NCBI GenBank assembly: GCA_013376995.1
Contig: JACAAZ010000009.1
Span: forward strand, 1-64,000
DNA length: 64,000 bases
Direction of reading: 5' to 3'
Source: Bacteroidota bacterium
GTDB taxonomy: Bacteria > Bacteroidota > Bacteroidia > Bacteroidales > UBA4417
Below the pieces are notes generated by a model. The model was given only the letters and a program-made list of their open reading frames with translations, was not told where the DNA came from and searched no databases. A program made the position numbers and the translations under genes. Numbering within the stretch: the first letter of the stretch is position 1; each line of letters starts with the position of its first letter. Of the stretch, positions 43,416-52,795 are shown piece after piece.

Positions 43416-43617
43416 CTATAAACTGGATAATAAGTTGCTTGGCTTTTAATGCATCTTCAGCCTGTACATATATTTCTATATCACCAATGAGGTAAGCTGA
43501 ATCGCGTTTATCCATACTGATACATCCTATCTCATTCTCTGCAAGTAATGCTTTGACTGCTTCCAAATCAATAAACTGGCCAGAGGAATATATACTTACC
43601 CAATCATTTGCCATCAT
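43408..43617 (-). CDS. DUF2007-type small protein
   Basis: This 69-residue soluble protein has the DUF2007 ('putative signal transducing protein') pattern: DWVSIYSSGQFIDLEAVKALLAENEI, then YVQAEDALKAKQLI. The family is thought to be regulatory on fold grounds only. It is translationally coupled on both sides: it overlaps the LUD stop by 4 bp (ATGA) and the cdsA GTG by 8 bp. Confidence 0.88.
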   Translation of the reverse strand: MMANDWVSIYSSGQFIDLEAVKALLAENEIGCISMDKRDSAYLIGDIEIYVQAEDALKAKQLIIQFIGE

Positions 43618-44276
43618 TCGTCTTCTGCTTCATTTTCAGGAACTTCAGTAAGGAATACATATAGCTCCTTAGGTCCGTGAGCTCCCATCACCAATGTCTT
43701 TTCGATATCGGCTGTGCGGCTTGGACCGGTAATTACTGAAACCAATGATGGAATCCTGTTCCCATATTTTTCCCTGATCAGGGCAAGTGCATCCTTTAGA
43801 TCAGGCACCAATTGCGATGGATAGGCAATAACAATATGTATTTCAGGATACACATTCAATCTCCTGCCTGAATCCTGCTTTGATGAGATCATGATACTTC
43901 CCAGTCGGGAAATGAGGAATTCACAGGAAGTAATTCCCACTTTAAGATCATGGAAACTCTCGTCATCCGATTGAAATGGTATACCGGCTTGAGTAAGGTA
44001 ATATTGAATGGAAGGATCCATGCAAAAGACATCCTGCCAGTCGTTCTCCGATGCCAGGGAAGCAAGGGATTGCACAAGGTCAGTTTCATCCTCGCAATAC
44101 ACGAATTGACCACCAGCCTTAGTAAACTCCTGAGCAAAATTGACATCCAATGATTCATCCATGGCTGTATAAACCGGCGAATCAAATTCCACCTGTGCAA
44201 AAGGATTATCAGTCTTATAAATAAGTGCATTACGCACTCTTTTTAAGACTTTTTCCCTGGATGTACTTTCTTCCAT
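43614..44276 (-). CDS. LUD-domain (LutC/YkgG-like) protein
   Basis: This 220-residue soluble protein is of the LUD family, seen in LutC. Supporting segments are SREKVLKRVRNAL at the N terminus, VGITSCEFLISRLGSIMISS in the centre, and VVSVITGPSRTADIEKTLVMGAHGPKELYVFL, the strongest signature. LutC takes part in lactate oxidation with LutA and LutB, but no lutAB lies here. Instead the gene sits between ftsH and cdsA, a position conserved in Bacteroidota, so a role other than lactate use is likely. Confidence 0.9.
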   Translation of the reverse strand: MEESTSREKVLKRVRNALIYKTDNPFAQVEFDSPVYTAMDESLDVNFAQEFTKAGGQFVYCEDETDLVQSLASLASENDWQDVFCMDPSIQYYLTQAGIPFQSDDESFHDLKVGITSCEFLISRLGSIMISSKQDSGRRLNVYPEIHIVIAYPSQLVPDLKDALALIREKYGNRIPSLVSVITGPSRTADIEKTLVMGAHGPKELYVFLTEVPENEAEDE

Positions 44277-47732: not shown

Positions 47733-49571
47733 TTAATAAGCCAGCTCTTCTGCATCTATTTCAACTGGCTCTGGCAGGTCCATCTGCTCCGCTACAAGTT
47801 CCGCTATGTCCTTTACGTTTATGTCAGTACCATTGTGGAAAGTCTTTTTACACAAAGGGCAGGATGTGATTAGCAGGTCAGGGTTAGGGCGGGTCAGGAC
47901 TTCCAGGGCTGCATCACGGATCTGCTCACGCTGATAGTGATCCATGCTGAAATCACCCAGGCTGCCTCCGCAACACAAGGCATTTTCCTTTTCTTCAGCA
48001 ACAGGAACAAGCCTAGCAACTCTTTTCAACAATTTCCTTGGCTCCTTATAAACTGCTGATCCACGTCCCAATTCACATGGATCGTGATAAACCACGGATA
48101 GACCGCTTTGATTGAGCCAGAGTGAACCAGCTTCAGCCAACCTCAAAAGGTATTGGGTATGATGCAGCACTTCAACACCGAATAGTTTATATTCTTCGTT
48201 GAACATCTTGTAACAAATCGGGCAGGATGTAACCAGGATCCGGGCACCGGAAGCATGTATTATCTGCCGGTTCTTCTCCATCACAGAATGAGCTGCATTG
48301 TTCATCCCGGCCATCATCAAAGGCCTGCCGCAACATATAGATCCATCGGCATCCATAAACCGGTACTTTACGTTGGCAGCCTGCATGATCTTCAACATAG
48401 CTTTCTTAACAGAAGGGGTGAGATGCCCCATACATCCGGCAAAATAAAGGACATTGATGCCCTTACTATCAGGAACATCAGCCGGCAGATAGGAATAAAT
48501 CTTGTCTATTTGCTTGTTGTCCAGATTTCGCGAAGCAACCCTCAGATCAAGAAGATCGATCTGTACAGGACATACCTGCTGGCATCTGCCGCATAGCAAA
48601 CAATTATTATCTACAATGGGTACAGGAACCTTCTTCCTCAATGACCTGAGGAAATATACCGGAGTCGAGAAAGTCTTCTGTGCAGTATTCATCTGGCAGA
48701 CATCGATACAGACGCCACACCTGGGGCAAGCCCTCATTTCTATCTCACTGAAACTGTTAATGGTTTTTCCAGATTTTACGCCGAAATGCTTGAGGTATAT
48801 CATCACTACCTCGGTTGGAATATGCATGTAACGCGACCATGGAAGGGTGATGAAGAATATGCCAAGCACACATGAATATCCCCACCAACTAATGTATGCG
48901 GTGCTCGTAAGGAAATTATCAGGCAGGATGGATGCGAGCACATCTCCCATGGAATTGGTCAGGAAACCACCGCCACCATGATGACTGGCTGTCAGGCTTT
49001 CTGCCAAAAGGCGCATAGGAAATATCAGCCACAGGCAGGTAATCGCCCAGCGGTCAAAACTGCTCTGGCGGGTAGTCCGTTTCATACCGAACCAACGTGA
49101 ACGGATCCTTTTGAATAGGGCCAATACTATCCCGGTTAGAACAAAAAGCAGGATAAAATCCATACTGAACCTGAAGAAACCGGGCATGGTATTCAGTTCA
49201 AAAGGAAGAACCCTTTTGTCGTGAACGAAAAATTTAAGGAAGATAGGATAGTATGGCGGGTTGATATGTCCGCCACTGTATACCCTCGATTCAATGTTTC
49301 CCATCAATATAAGCAGGAACCATCCCAGGGCAAAGCTCATGTGCATGAATCCCAAAAGCTTGTTCTGCTTCCACATCCTACGGTGAAGAAGGCATTCCAT
49401 GAAAACTTCAGCTGTGGCAGGGAAAATCTGCATGCTAAACAGCCCATAGCCGATCTTTCGCCTGCCGGAGCGGTCGATCAGGGCTATCCACCTGCTGAAC
49501 TTGACGAACAGCACTGTAAGCAGGAATAGCAAGCCTATGAAAAAAGGCAGTACAAAAATATCGAAGGTCAT
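47733..49571 (-). CDS. Membrane NarI-like/HdrD-like iron-sulfur oxidoreductase
   Basis: This is a 612-residue integral membrane electron-transfer protein. The N-terminal 270 residues hold about six hydrophobic helices with several His residues, as in NarI-type b-haem subunits. Then follow two [4Fe-4S] motifs (ACPRCGVCIDVC and CLLCGRCQQVCP) and two CCG domains (GCMG, ICCGRP, SCPICYKMF; then HDPCELGRG, LCCGGS, SCPLCKKTF), as in HdrD. This NarI-HdrD fusion resembles ETF:menaquinone oxidoreductases (EMO/FadF, 'DUF224'). The start at 49571 overlaps the preceding HdrC-like stop as ATGA. It is likely the quinone-facing subunit of the Hdr-like complex. Confidence 0.88.
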   Translation of the reverse strand: MTFDIFVLPFFIGLLFLLTVLFVKFSRWIALIDRSGRRKIGYGLFSMQIFPATAEVFMECLLHRRMWKQNKLLGFMHMSFALGWFLLILMGNIESRVYSGGHINPPYYPIFLKFFVHDKRVLPFELNTMPGFFRFSMDFILLFVLTGIVLALFKRIRSRWFGMKRTTRQSSFDRWAITCLWLIFPMRLLAESLTASHHGGGGFLTNSMGDVLASILPDNFLTSTAYISWWGYSCVLGIFFITLPWSRYMHIPTEVVMIYLKHFGVKSGKTINSFSEIEMRACPRCGVCIDVCQMNTAQKTFSTPVYFLRSLRKKVPVPIVDNNCLLCGRCQQVCPVQIDLLDLRVASRNLDNKQIDKIYSYLPADVPDSKGINVLYFAGCMGHLTPSVKKAMLKIMQAANVKYRFMDADGSICCGRPLMMAGMNNAAHSVMEKNRQIIHASGARILVTSCPICYKMFNEEYKLFGVEVLHHTQYLLRLAEAGSLWLNQSGLSVVYHDPCELGRGSAVYKEPRKLLKRVARLVPVAEEKENALCCGGSLGDFSMDHYQREQIRDAALEVLTRPNPDLLITSCPLCKKTFHNGTDINVKDIAELVAEQMDLPEPVEIDAEELAY

Positions 49572-49918
49572 AGGTTTTCGGATTGCAGCACCCTGTTGAT
49601 TTGCAGGATAAGGTTTCTTGTACTTATTCCCCTCGGACATACCAACTGGCATTTCCCGCAAAGCATGCATTTTTGTGCTTCCCTGGCAAGTCCCTTTAGT
49701 TCACCTCTTTTTACCTGGAGGATAATGCGCCTCAGGCTGAAATCGGTAAACTTTGCCGCTGTACAGGTTGCTGCGCAGGTCCCGCAGGATATACACCAGT
49801 TCAGTCCCGGTTCGGCAGCAGCAACTTTACTGGCAACCTCGTGGTTGTTGCGATCGAAGTCGATCTGCCGGTCCGGGCTGACGAAATATCCGAAACGGGA
49901 GGCTGAATCTTGCATCAT
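49568..49918 (-). CDS. Second HdrC-like dicluster ferredoxin subunit
   Basis: This is a 116-residue iron-sulfur protein with two [4Fe-4S] motifs, CISCGTCAATC followed by TAAKF, and CMLCGKCQLVCPRG, joined by a helical spacer. This is the arrangement of HdrC. In the first motif the residue after the fourth Cys is Thr rather than Pro. It lies 71 bp after the HdrA-like gene and overlaps the membrane HdrD-like gene by 4 bp, so the two are translated together; it is probably the electron wire into the membrane subunit. Confidence 0.88.
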   Translation of the reverse strand: MMQDSASRFGYFVSPDRQIDFDRNNHEVASKVAAAEPGLNWCISCGTCAATCTAAKFTDFSLRRIILQVKRGELKGLAREAQKCMLCGKCQLVCPRGISTRNLILQINRVLQSENL

Positions 49919-49989
49919 TTATAACTCTTATGTGATGATGTTCAACAATTCTTAATAAAATCAGATTTTCAACTCGAAAACTATCTGAA

Positions 49990-51015
49990 TTATATTATCT
50001 CTTTCAAAAACCTGTCGATCTCCAAAGCCGCCGACCTGGCATCTGTCAGAGTGTCGGTAATCGTCTTTGGCCCCGTGGCAGTTCCTGCCATAAAAAAACC
50101 GGGCAATTCGCTAAGATTAGCCTGGGTGTGAGGATCAACTGGCTTAAGGAAACCATCATCTACTTTTGCCAGCCCGAGTTTATCCCGCATATTGGTAACA
50201 GCAACCGGAGCAACCATTCCAGACATTAGGACCAACAAGTCAAGGGTTAGTTTCAGAGGTTTTCCAAGCAAGGTATCCTCCACTTTTACAACGACTCCCC
50301 CTTGTTTGTTTTCAGAGGCTTCGCTCAGACGGCCCCTGATGAACTGGATATTGTGTTTTTCCTGGGCTTCCTGGTAAAGTTCTTCATAGTGGCGACCAAA
50401 CATCCGAAGGTCCATGTAAAAGCAATATACCTCGACAGAGGGATAAAGTTCCTTGATCTCAATAGCCTGCTTAACGGCTGTTATACAACAGACTTTCGAG
50501 CAGTAGATATTCCCCGCTTTCTCATCGCGTGAGCCGACACAATGAATGAAACCAATACGTTGCGGGTCTTTACCCAGGCGCGGATTCAAGCCTTCACCCT
50601 GGATGAAAATTTCTTCCAGGTCTGCAGAAGTGATAACATGATCATAGATTCCATATCCATATTCTTCCTTCTTATGTGCATCGAAAAGGTCGAAACCGGT
50701 AGCCATCAGCACTGCATCAGCATTGGTAACCCAACCGTCAGCGGCAGTTACAATAAATTTCCCGGAAAATGGCTTGATAGAAGTTATTTCCTTTCCATAC
50801 TGGACCTGGATGCTGTCATCCATCTTTTCATACAGTTTCTCAAGCAAATCCCTGCCCTGCCTGCGATTCGGGAATAACTGGTGCCAGTGGTTTATATGCC
50901 CTCCAAGTATTTCATTCTTTTCAATCAGGGTTATGGAATGGCCCATAGCATTGAGGATTGAGGCCGCTTCAATCCCGGCAATGCCGGCGCCGACAACTGC
51001 TACATGTTTACTCAT
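49990..51015 (-). CDS. Short HdrA/QmoA-like FAD protein
   Basis: This 341-residue flavoprotein has an N-terminal FAD fold (VAVVGAGIAGIEAA, residues 5-18, then TLIEKNEILGGH). It carries the HdrA cysteine cluster motif around CVGSRDEKAGNIYCSKVCC, near residues 177-195. It lacks the N-terminal domain and the extra ferredoxin domains of methanogen HdrA and is near QmoA in size. It should therefore carry FAD and one [4Fe-4S] cluster, but I see no basis for flavin-based electron bifurcation partners here. It overlaps the HdrB-like stop by 4 bp. Confidence 0.88.
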   Translation of the reverse strand: MSKHVAVVGAGIAGIEAASILNAMGHSITLIEKNEILGGHINHWHQLFPNRRQGRDLLEKLYEKMDDSIQVQYGKEITSIKPFSGKFIVTAADGWVTNADAVLMATGFDLFDAHKKEEYGYGIYDHVITSADLEEIFIQGEGLNPRLGKDPQRIGFIHCVGSRDEKAGNIYCSKVCCITAVKQAIEIKELYPSVEVYCFYMDLRMFGRHYEELYQEAQEKHNIQFIRGRLSEASENKQGGVVVKVEDTLLGKPLKLTLDLLVLMSGMVAPVAVTNMRDKLGLAKVDDGFLKPVDPHTQANLSELPGFFMAGTATGPKTITDTLTDARSAALEIDRFLKEII

Positions 51016-52088
51016 TCCTGGTAGAATTTTAGGTAAGATGGAGCCGCGGGTTTCCCCATATCTTCGCCGTTAGGCCCCTTGAATTTTGCTTCCGGATCAT
51101 ATTCAATCCCGATCTTATCCAGCAGGGGTTCTGCCGGCACCTGGTGAACCTGAAGGCCGAGTTGCCATGGATCGTAACCCAGTAGCATACCGGCAACCTC
51201 TTCGTATGTAAATACTGGAATTCCCTGTTTATCTTTTCCATAGGTCCTGCCTTCCATTTCGCTGAGTGCATATTGCCAGCGATCGAGGAACATAGGGCAA
51301 CCTGGACAATTCGTAATGATCATGTCCGGCTCGTAAGGTTCCATTGAATCAAACTTTTTCCTGGAACAGGCTATGGAAAACCCCCGGTTGGCCTGGATGG
51401 CATACTGCCTGAATCCAAAACCGCAGCAATGGCGCCGCTCAGGATAATCCACCACTTCACCACCCCATGATTCGATCATCCCGGTGAGAACATAAGGATA
51501 TTCAGCACCTCCAACTCCCTTGTGGGGGAACATTTTGGAATAGTGGCAGCCGATATGTTCAACCACTTTCAGGGGAGAGCCGGTATTTTTATCAACGAGC
51601 CTGTATTTAGCCTTAGCGGCTATCTCGTTCCTGAATTTGTAGATAATATCACTGGCATGGGCCAGGTTGTTGGGAACCGTAAATTCACGCCCCGTGGCCT
51701 TGTAAAGAAAATCACGCGTTTTTTCAAGTGTTTCCGGGAAATGTTTCCAGGTCTCAATGATCTCGGTGTAAAGTCCAAAGGATGTTATGCAGGAAGCAAT
51801 ATAGTTGCTGTAGCCTGCTTCAGTCATCAATGAGAACTGCCGGGCAATCACAGTCATGGTGGTTTCGAAAGGCACTACATCTGTATGATAGCCGATGCCA
51901 GTGCAGGAAGTATGGTGCTGGTTATCGCAAAGGTCTTTACCCAGTTCATCTTTCATGATGCGGGTAAAGGCTTTTTCGGAGCCCGGAAAAAAATTCTGAC
52001 GGATACAGGAGCGTGCATAAAAATAATGATCGTCAGCGATCTCCTTCTGGTATTCCTTCCAGATCAGTTTCTTCCCGTCCGCCTTCAT
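51012..52088 (-). CDS. HdrB-like CCG-domain subunit
   Basis: This 358-residue soluble subunit has an intact C-terminal CCG motif: GCHYSK, then HCCGFG 39 residues on, then NCPGC after 38 more. In HdrB such Cys bind the non-cubane [4Fe-4S] clusters that reduce disulfides. The N-terminal half has only scattered Cys (SCIRQNFFPG, HTSCTGIG) in place of a full second CCG set, so it may hold one special cluster rather than two. ATGA overlaps join it to the HdrC-like gene before it and the HdrA-like gene after it. Confidence 0.87.
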   Translation of the reverse strand: MKADGKKLIWKEYQKEIADDHYFYARSCIRQNFFPGSEKAFTRIMKDELGKDLCDNQHHTSCTGIGYHTDVVPFETTMTVIARQFSLMTEAGYSNYIASCITSFGLYTEIIETWKHFPETLEKTRDFLYKATGREFTVPNNLAHASDIIYKFRNEIAAKAKYRLVDKNTGSPLKVVEHIGCHYSKMFPHKGVGGAEYPYVLTGMIESWGGEVVDYPERRHCCGFGFRQYAIQANRGFSIACSRKKFDSMEPYEPDMIITNCPGCPMFLDRWQYALSEMEGRTYGKDKQGIPVFTYEEVAGMLLGYDPWQLGLQVHQVPAEPLLDKIGIEYDPEAKFKGPNGEDMGKPAAPSYLKFYQE

Positions 52089-52795
52089 TCGCGTGTATGA
52101 GTTTGATTATTTGTCGTATAGATCATCCTGAAGTATTCATTATTTGCACCTTCACCGAATTCCACTCCCATTTCTTCTGCCTTTGCTTTGGAAAACTTCT
52201 CAAGGTCGCGGAAGCGGTCCATTCCTCCTGTAACTTCAAATATTTTGTGTATCTCATCCAGGTCTTCCTGGGGAATTTTTCTCAAAGCACCTGGACCTTC
52301 TCCCTTGTAATTGGCTCCCAGCTTTTCCATTACCTCCTCAATATGCTCCATTTCCCATTCCCAGATTGGACCTTGTTCAGGGTGATTGCCGGGAGCAATG
52401 GTATCAGGATTTATACAATATCCATGTGATAGTATTTTCTCCCCTATAGCTCTTTTAAGCGCCAACTGCTGCCTGCCTTTCTCCGATTCGGTAAAATAAC
52501 CAAGATCCTGTGAAAGCGCCCTCAATGCTATTACAAGGAGTCCAGGAACATTACCGCGGGGGCATCGTGTTTTGCATGACATGCATTCCCCGCAATACCA
52601 GATGGTTTCGCTTTTCAGCAATTCAATGATCTTAGCGTCATCCTGGGTTTGGACAGTGATAGCTACGGTACGGGGATCATAAACATAGAATTCTGCGGCA
52701 GGACAGATTGCAGTGCAGGTACCGCAGTTGATACAGGCTTTCAGGCTTTCGATGAACCTGACATCGGTTGCTAATTTATCATACAATACACCCAT
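52085..52795 (-). CDS. HdrC-like iron-sulfur subunit, first gene of the Hdr-like operon
   Basis: This 236-residue protein has two [4Fe-4S] motifs near the N terminus, CINCGTCTAICPAAEF (about 21-36) and CGECMSCKTRCPRG (about 68-81), as in HdrC. It is followed by a long, helical, charged C-terminal extension of about 140 residues absent from minimal HdrC. It leads the operon HdrC-HdrB-HdrA-HdrC2-HdrD/NarI. A perfect minus-strand -7 box lies about 75 bp upstream. Confidence 0.88.
   Translation of the reverse strand: MGVLYDKLATDVRFIESLKACINCGTCTAICPAAEFYVYDPRTVAITVQTQDDAKIIELLKSETIWYCGECMSCKTRCPRGNVPGLLVIALRALSQDLGYFTESEKGRQQLALKRAIGEKILSHGYCINPDTIAPGNHPEQGPIWEWEMEHIEEVMEKLGANYKGEGPGALRKIPQEDLDEIHKIFEVTGGMDRFRDLEKFSKAKAEEMGVEFGEGANNEYFRMIYTTNNQTHTRE

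Follow-up and report, generated by a model that had tools for sequence, protein, structure and literature searches.

What system is encoded by five consecutive Hdr-like genes, the last of them for a membrane protein, in a bacterium of the Bacteroidales? The question is raised by a 64,000-nucleotide stretch (positions 1 to 64,000 of contig JACAAZ010000009.1, assembly GCA_013376995.1, from a Bacteroidota bacterium of the UBA4417 lineage), called the window here. A cassette with the order HdrC1-HdrB-HdrA-HdrC2-D, where D is a membrane domain joined to HdrD, occupies positions 47733-52795 of its minus strand. All five genes had been read in this order in a first-pass annotation made from the sequence alone, and both the order and the coordinates were confirmed. 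The cassette is real and not an artefact, and it is a lineage-fixed, membrane-anchored variant of the sHdr-type complexes. As far as was found, it is not a module of a known pathway, and no description of it was found in the open-access literature, to which the search was confined (subscription papers lay outside it).

The first gene encodes an sHdrC1-like HdrC1 (52085..52795; 236 aa) with two CxxCxxCxxxC sets, that is, two [4Fe-4S] binding sets. It is followed by an HdrB of the sHdrB1 type (51012..52088; 358 aa), identified by its CCG motif in Pfam, alignment, trees and a structure model, and by a short HdrA (49990..51015; 341 aa) with a GxGxxG motif for flavin adenine dinucleotide (FAD) and one [4Fe-4S] motif, CX12CX3CC. 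HdrC2 (49568..49918; 116 aa) is a small two-[4Fe-4S] protein, and D (47733..49571; 612 aa) has five long helices, two ferredoxin-type sets and two CCG sets. The ATGA overlaps noted earlier were found at the C1-B, B-A and C2-D junctions, while A and C2 lie 71 nt apart in the window. The start of D required correction: the product of 645 aa called from position 49670 is overlong, and the ATG at 49571, giving 612 aa, was adopted because it lies inside the ATGA overlap and agrees with relatives. A Pfam scan returned two ferredoxin-type proteins, one CCG stretch (B), a flavin fold (A) and two CCG plus ferredoxin signatures (D); no NCBIfam model exceeded its own cut-off for the five proteins among the matches listed.

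Relatives of HdrB were sought in one genome per species across 84,980 species, yielding 425 stretches, of which the best 80 loci were used (loci and genomes are given L and G numbers below). The complete order is kept in 73 of these 80 loci, a count that takes in loci with D cut at a contig end and two with A in two frames. Because it recurs so widely, the order is not due to chance. Five of the seven exceptions stop no more than about 0.7 kb from a contig end; the other two, L039 (no D) and L077 (C1-B only), have contig room remaining. By title, the 80 loci belong to Bacteroidota or its families, except L031; this locus, titled Alphaproteobacteria, carries the cassette with an HdrB 73% identical and probably comes from a mislabelled or contaminated assembly. 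A further 37 loci were picked by hand from 36 less similar Bacteroidales genomes; the complete ordered set is present in 30, with D split over two frames in one case. The exceptions comprise a contig end (L195), B-A only (L199, L201, L218), C1-B only (L210, L221) and a rearranged locus with C1-C2-D and then B-A (L207). The A-C2 gap has a median of 4 nt and exceeds 300 nt in 6 of 73 loci, and the gaps within the cassette in L032, L011, L016, L081, L062 and L072 hold either no genes or genes read as unrelated.

The distribution of the cassette indicates that HdrB and D are inherited together in the sample. HdrB was matched in 93 of 295 Bacteroidales genomes (90 at full-length level, or about 30%, with two fragments and one weak match to another protein). 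In a sample of 395 genomes of the phylum, HdrB was matched at full-length level in the window's genome alone; the sample includes at least five other genomes of the same taxonomic order, none of them matching, and so says little about that order. Co-occurrence was assessed in 80 Bacteroidales genomes carrying the labels of 73 families, 42 with HdrB and 38 without, using a profile search for D (E 1e-60). D was found in 42/42 genomes with HdrB and in 0/38 without (Fisher p about 1e-23, a value that overstates the independence of genomes sharing ancestry). In G395 and G512, where every B candidate was scored, the two genes are on different contigs, so their association goes beyond mere linkage. 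The membrane subunit, which the first-pass annotation had placed in one complex with the Hdr genes, is thus always conserved with HdrB in the sample.

All eight cluster cysteines of HdrC1 are invariant (20/20 rows), and HdrC2 was aligned over 16 rows. HdrB, in an alignment of 20 rows, has one complete CCG set (C181, C221-222, C261 and C264), its first site being reduced to C28, C62 and C100; it had indeed been described as having only one full motif. It therefore lacks the two complete CCG sites of methanogen, Flx and Mvh HdrB, and its predicted structure (model m748b7349f274) matches HdrB 5odc_B. In the first site, C, TSC/TTC and CxTS replace C, CC and CxxC, a pattern common to three sHdrB1 rows. 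HdrA showed no ferredoxin domain among the Pfam hits at E 0.001, in line with the earlier description of a protein without these extra domains. It matches the sHdrA structure 6tjr over its full length in a profile search and retains a lysine present in methanogen HdrA.

Trees and similarity searches place the cassette nearest, among the relatives found, to sHdr, the lipoate-linked Hdr of sulfur oxidation. Homologues of sHdrC1, sHdrB1 and sHdrA are all present in one cluster, A and B being assigned by trees and C1 by BLAST. The B tree separates cassette B, cyanobacterial B and sHdrB1 from HdrB, SdhE and cyanobacterial B2 with support of 100/100, with long branches flagged by the program, and the A tree separates cassette A and sHdrA from HdrA and one Qmo-like row with 97/97, with one long branch flagged. 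Type I sHdr is represented in these comparisons by one plasmid-borne B1 and the profile match to 6tjr only. The type II comparator comes from another Bacteroidota genome, G005, where genes were named by reading and by published definitions (PMC11582611). In G005 the cluster (L188:450-16595) contains two LbpA-type genes, EtfAB, EMO and lipoate assembly genes; a tblastn search with its B3 gave a second match within the same cluster, at about 41% identity, which is presumably EMO. The earlier prediction of a complex related to Qmo/Hdr with a different composition stands as far as the cassette is one coherent, lineage-conserved Hdr-type set that includes a membrane subunit of its own, while the relatives found for it are sHdrC1-B1-A and not Qmo. 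The subunit make-up speaks against kinship with Qmo, which was rejected, and so, weakly, does the A tree, where Qmo is one protein (L141 and L152 have the same sequence) named from length and arrangement.

In the literature, sHdr-LbpA clusters of type I are given as shdrC1B1A-hyp-C2B2 and those of type II as shdrC1B1A-hyp-B3 with etfAB (PMC11582611), and LbpA is reported to be essential (PMC6067878, PMC10332631). Three LbpA queries matched none of the 117 loci and nothing in the window (1.8 Mb in all), although both type II control clusters were matched. Queries with EtfA and EtfB likewise gave no match in the 117 loci or the window, with positive controls matched, which agrees with the earlier observation that no etf genes are adjacent. 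The queries for hyp and for the lipoate ligase Lpl each matched only their source cluster, hyp missing the second control, and both absences are weak; most loci have no gene room for hyp, given the median A-C2 gap of 4 nt. A GcvH/LbpA-type protein was found in the window's genome and in neither of the cassette-bearing genomes G398 and G412. LbpA was accordingly rejected as an obligatory partner, from its absence at all 117 loci and the two cassette-bearing genomes without any GcvH/LbpA-type match. Separately, paired frames with GCV_H domains, about 245 and 560 aa long and some 3 kb apart, were observed in G416:C57, G558:C6, G487:C1 and G401:C56, and a pair of 247 and 245 aa at similar spacing (~3 kb) in G559:C100; such pairs occur in genomes both with and without the cassette.

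The subunit that sets the cassette apart is D. It had been likened to the ETF:menaquinone oxidoreductases (EMO, or EtfD; ETF, electron-transfer flavoprotein), and the likeness holds for the architecture but not for the cluster ligands. The five long helices were taken as transmembrane from the structure model (pLDDT 83), and the model covers Mycobacterium (M.) smegmatis EtfD end to end, membrane part included (TMq 0.71). A study of EtfD describes a first CCG site with threonine for the second cysteine and a histidine, before the last cysteine, that completes the second cluster, resulting in a shielded electron wire with ligands for a linear [3Fe-4S] cluster and a non-catalytic noncubane one; EtfD apparently has one haem b and a menaquinone site, and in Hdr complete CCG sites are the catalytic sites (PMC13083937). 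In D, both CCG ligand sets are complete and the EtfD-type histidine is absent in 19/19 rows. That histidine is present in all seven other Bacteroidota EtfD-type proteins compared, six of which lack the second cysteine of the first CCG site (G020 retains it). His63, His77 and His250 in the membrane part are invariant in the 19 rows, and the position of His63 is Gln in 9/9 EMO-type rows. By alignment and structure model, D is a protein of EtfD-like architecture with HdrD-like cluster ligands, comparable to a fusion of HdrE and HdrD. Since these ligands are of the HdrD type, its resemblance to EMO is not to be taken as a link to ETF.

The neighbourhood of the cassette was searched for a partner. 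In the 80 and 37 loci, none outside the five genes is kept beyond near relatives; the best conserved neighbours proved to be near-relative synteny (RsfS, FtsH, PyrE) or opposite-strand shadow frames, and this route to a partner was rejected. Within the window, a FlpD query gave no match, consistent with the absence of mvhD noted earlier, and the absence of adjacent dsr/apr genes was upheld by a reading of the window's open reading frames only. A stand-alone LUD-domain (LutC-like) gene at 43614-44276 lies near the cassette and is kept there in only a few near relatives. Whether the operon is a fixed part of a known pathway had also been asked; no such pathway accompanies the full cassette as a rule, with one exception. 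In G418 (L239:77-7634), the genes directly upstream, separated from the cassette by one opposite-strand gene, encode DsrE2, DsrE-family proteins, FlpD, a fused GltD-HdrA, HdrA and a QmoC-like protein (150.6 bits against a cut-off of 300). Directly downstream (L239:13974-15155) is a pyridoxal-phosphate (PLP) enzyme of Cys/Met metabolism, closest to methionine gamma-lyase and below family cut-offs. Clusters of the type DsrE2-DsrE-FlpD-HdrA-HdrA-QmoC-like are found near the cassette, an extra C1-B copy or a B remnant at L239:77-7634, L236:194-6597, L237:15494-19000 and L238:9051-15000, their genes being named by family search in L239 only. Extra C1-B copies in G420 and G473 also have FlpD/HdrA-type genes of this sort no more than about 15 kb away, and in G457 such genes lie next to a B remnant.

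Extra C1-B pairs without A, C2 and D (L236, L237, L240-L244, L210) occur among genes for DUF134, NifX-like, CGGC, radical-SAM and MinD/NUBPL-type ATPase proteins, with methionine-gamma-lyase-type PLP genes beside two of the pairs (L240:8491-9672, L244:5111-6292). At least one of seven queries for these neighbours matches 8 of 11 pair or remnant loci, compared with 1 of 115 others (L225, with the MinD queries only); because the pair loci were chosen by hand, these counts are descriptive and do not amount to a test. The surroundings of the extra pairs look like a conserved locus of their own. Taken together, the neighbours of some copies make a sulfur or iron-sulfur setting for B and C1 more likely, and the DsrE and Qmo-like genes fit sulfur chemistry.

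The function of the cassette can be approached from these features. We judge it probable, if only just, that the cassette encodes a membrane-bound variant of sHdr that is linked to quinone and whose HdrB acts on a thiol, disulfide or sulfane substrate. What the sequences show directly is the gene content, the fixed order, the strict co-occurrence of B and D in the sample, the cofactor ligands and the sHdr kinship of A and B; assembly of the complex, electron path, haem, quinone partner, direction and substrate class are inferred. The five proteins would assemble into one membrane-bound complex in which the soluble second wing of sHdr (C2-B2 or B3) is replaced by C2 and D, in which HdrD is fused to a cytochrome b domain of the HdrE type. 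A substrate with thiol, disulfide or sulfane sulfur would react at the iron-sulfur site of HdrB. Judging by the cofactor motifs, electrons may pass from B to HdrC1, the putative carrier between B and A, and on through HdrA (FAD, [4Fe-4S]) and C2 to D (ferredoxin-type clusters, haem b) and a membrane quinone. In the usual direction the substrate would be oxidised and quinone reduced, feeding fumarate respiration; thermodynamically, thiol oxidation with quinone reduction is favoured.

Several observations weigh against this interpretation. D contains two complete Hdr-type active-site motifs, which are superfluous for a pure electron wire, and the sequence does not give the direction of the reaction. 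The parts are separable, with C1-B pairs alone at L077, L210, L221, L236, L237 and L240-L244, and B-A pairs with D elsewhere at L199, L201 and L218. In the 80 and 37 loci no gene outside the cassette recurs as a general partner, and its sulfur-gene neighbours are sporadic. The menaquinone link proposed in the first-pass annotation was not borne out by markers, whose distribution is neutral: MenD or an Mqn marker was found in 31/42 cassette-bearing and 30/38 cassette-free genomes, and 11/42 cassette-bearing genomes have neither MenD nor MqnA/MqnD (in G399, a split MenD below the cut-off was scored absent). Scavenging of quinones would explain the marker-free genomes. In the window's own genome, two genes of the MqnA/MqnD type were found, and MenD had no match.

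The same complex might instead run in reverse, with a quinol, helped by a proton gradient or a low-potential quinol pool, reducing a disulfide, which is the direction in which HdrDE works in methanogens. The two complete HdrD-type sites of D without the EtfD-type histidine (19/19 rows), of the kind described above as catalytic in Hdr, speak for this reading. Against it, quinone at about -74 mV would donate electrons only weakly to ordinary disulfides, and a D that itself held the active site would leave B, C1 and A without explanation. Reversal seems rather unlikely. A two-headed thiol/disulfide redox machine, with both ends catalytic and two thiol/disulfide or sulfane reactions coupled through flavin to the quinone pool, is conceivable but doubtful. 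It draws on the two complete sites in D, the one complete and one three-cysteine site in B, and the flavin of HdrA, with its methanogen lysine, between them. If true, it would imply a new thiol cofactor or sulfur-carrier protein in Bacteroidales, for which DsrE-family proteins near some copies would be candidates and which would be neither LbpA nor BshC-made bacillithiol; the latter was rejected as a substrate, BshC being found in 0/80 genomes (controls detected in 3/14). Oxidation of sulfane sulfur on a lipoate protein to sulfite, as by a true sulfur-oxidizing sHdr, would suit the sHdr lineage of A, B and C1, the matching gene order and the DsrE-family genes near some copies. It is distinctly unlikely, given that LbpA queries found no match at any of the 117 loci or in the window, with both type II controls matched, and that G398 and G412 do without any GcvH/LbpA-type protein although LbpA is reported as essential (PMC6067878, PMC10332631).

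The two remaining alternatives assign the cassette to systems with other partners. A bifurcating Hdr that receives electrons via FlpD (of FlxABCD or of a Qmo/DsrE-type cluster) and also reduces ferredoxin could draw on the FlxABCD-HdrABC genes on another contig of the window's genome, the methanogen-type lysine of HdrA, and the FlpD-HdrA clusters directly upstream in G418 and, in three other genomes, ~15 kb or less from a B remnant or extra B copy. It is very unlikely in view of an HdrA without ferredoxin domains and a FlpD distribution (16/40 cassette-bearing versus 10/40 other genomes, p 0.23) in which 24/40 cassette-bearing genomes lack FlpD; a general dependence on FlpD was rejected on this last count. 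Least probable of all is that D is an ETF:quinone oxidoreductase (EMO/EtfD) with the Hdr genes as accessories. D does have the fold and domain order of EtfD, and ETF alpha is present in 41/42 cassette-bearing genomes, but it is equally common without the cassette (36/38), cassette-bearing G423 has no ETF alpha match, and neither the EtfD-type histidine nor the loss of the second cysteine is seen in D in any of the 19 rows.

If the quinone-linked thiol or sulfane chemistry favoured here is correct, the cassette would add to these anaerobes an energy-conserving step that present models do not contain. It detaches the sHdr lineage from lipoate, and perhaps from a lithotrophic use of sulfur as well; with B and D always inherited together in the sample, it is also a clean target for genetics. 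Record titles of its relatives mention lakes (names that we take to be those of lakes), groundwater, fen and goat rectum, among others, and the cassette points to a sulfur-based step in the energy metabolism of many gut, lake and groundwater Bacteroidales.

Among known systems, the cassette shares with sHdr a C1, a B1-type HdrB with a degenerate first site, a short HdrA, a second HdrC and a terminal CCG-type protein. It differs in that the last subunit is membrane-bound, D holding the place of B2/B3, in having no LbpA or EtfAB nearby and mostly no room for hyp, and in the complete second CCG site of its HdrB, where one cysteine is absent in 3/3 sHdrB1 rows. With EtfD/EMO, D has in common the five long helices, the ferredoxin-type region, the two CCG domains and the end-to-end structural match, whereas its full first CCG set, its lack of the EtfD-type histidine and the extra invariant His63 distinguish it. 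HdrDE of methanogens consists of a b-type cytochrome and an HdrD with two complete CCG sites, and D resembles this general description in its putative cytochrome b-type domain, with conserved membrane histidines, and in its two complete CCG sites (19/19 rows); here, however, the two parts form a single polypeptide whose gene stands with those for HdrC1-B-A-C2. In QmoABC there are two subunits of the HdrA type and an HdrC-cytochrome b fusion, with no HdrB or HdrD. The likeness lies in HdrA and HdrC modules tied to a membrane cytochrome b-type domain, but the cassette has HdrB, HdrD and a single HdrA that groups with sHdrA.

FlxABCD-HdrABC also contains HdrA, HdrB and HdrC homologues, although its HdrA is full-length with ferredoxin domains, FlpD is present and there is no membrane subunit. 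One such cluster (HdrC-HdrB-HdrA, FlpD and three Flx-type genes) is present in the window's own genome (G000, contig C6, L190:718-7346). A cluster of the same gene order comes from an oxygenic phototroph, Picosynechococcus sp. PCC 7003, whose plasmid NZ_CP016476.1 (L234:8065-13805) encodes C1-B-A-C2-B2 and an FAD oxidoreductase. A, B and C1 are 46%, 42% and 52% identical, and its HdrA is placed among Bacteroidales rows in the A tree; in place of D stand B2, which is soluble, and a flavoprotein with weak similarity to sulfide:quinone reductase. Judging by this plasmid cluster, the core would be modular and its membrane outlet exchangeable.

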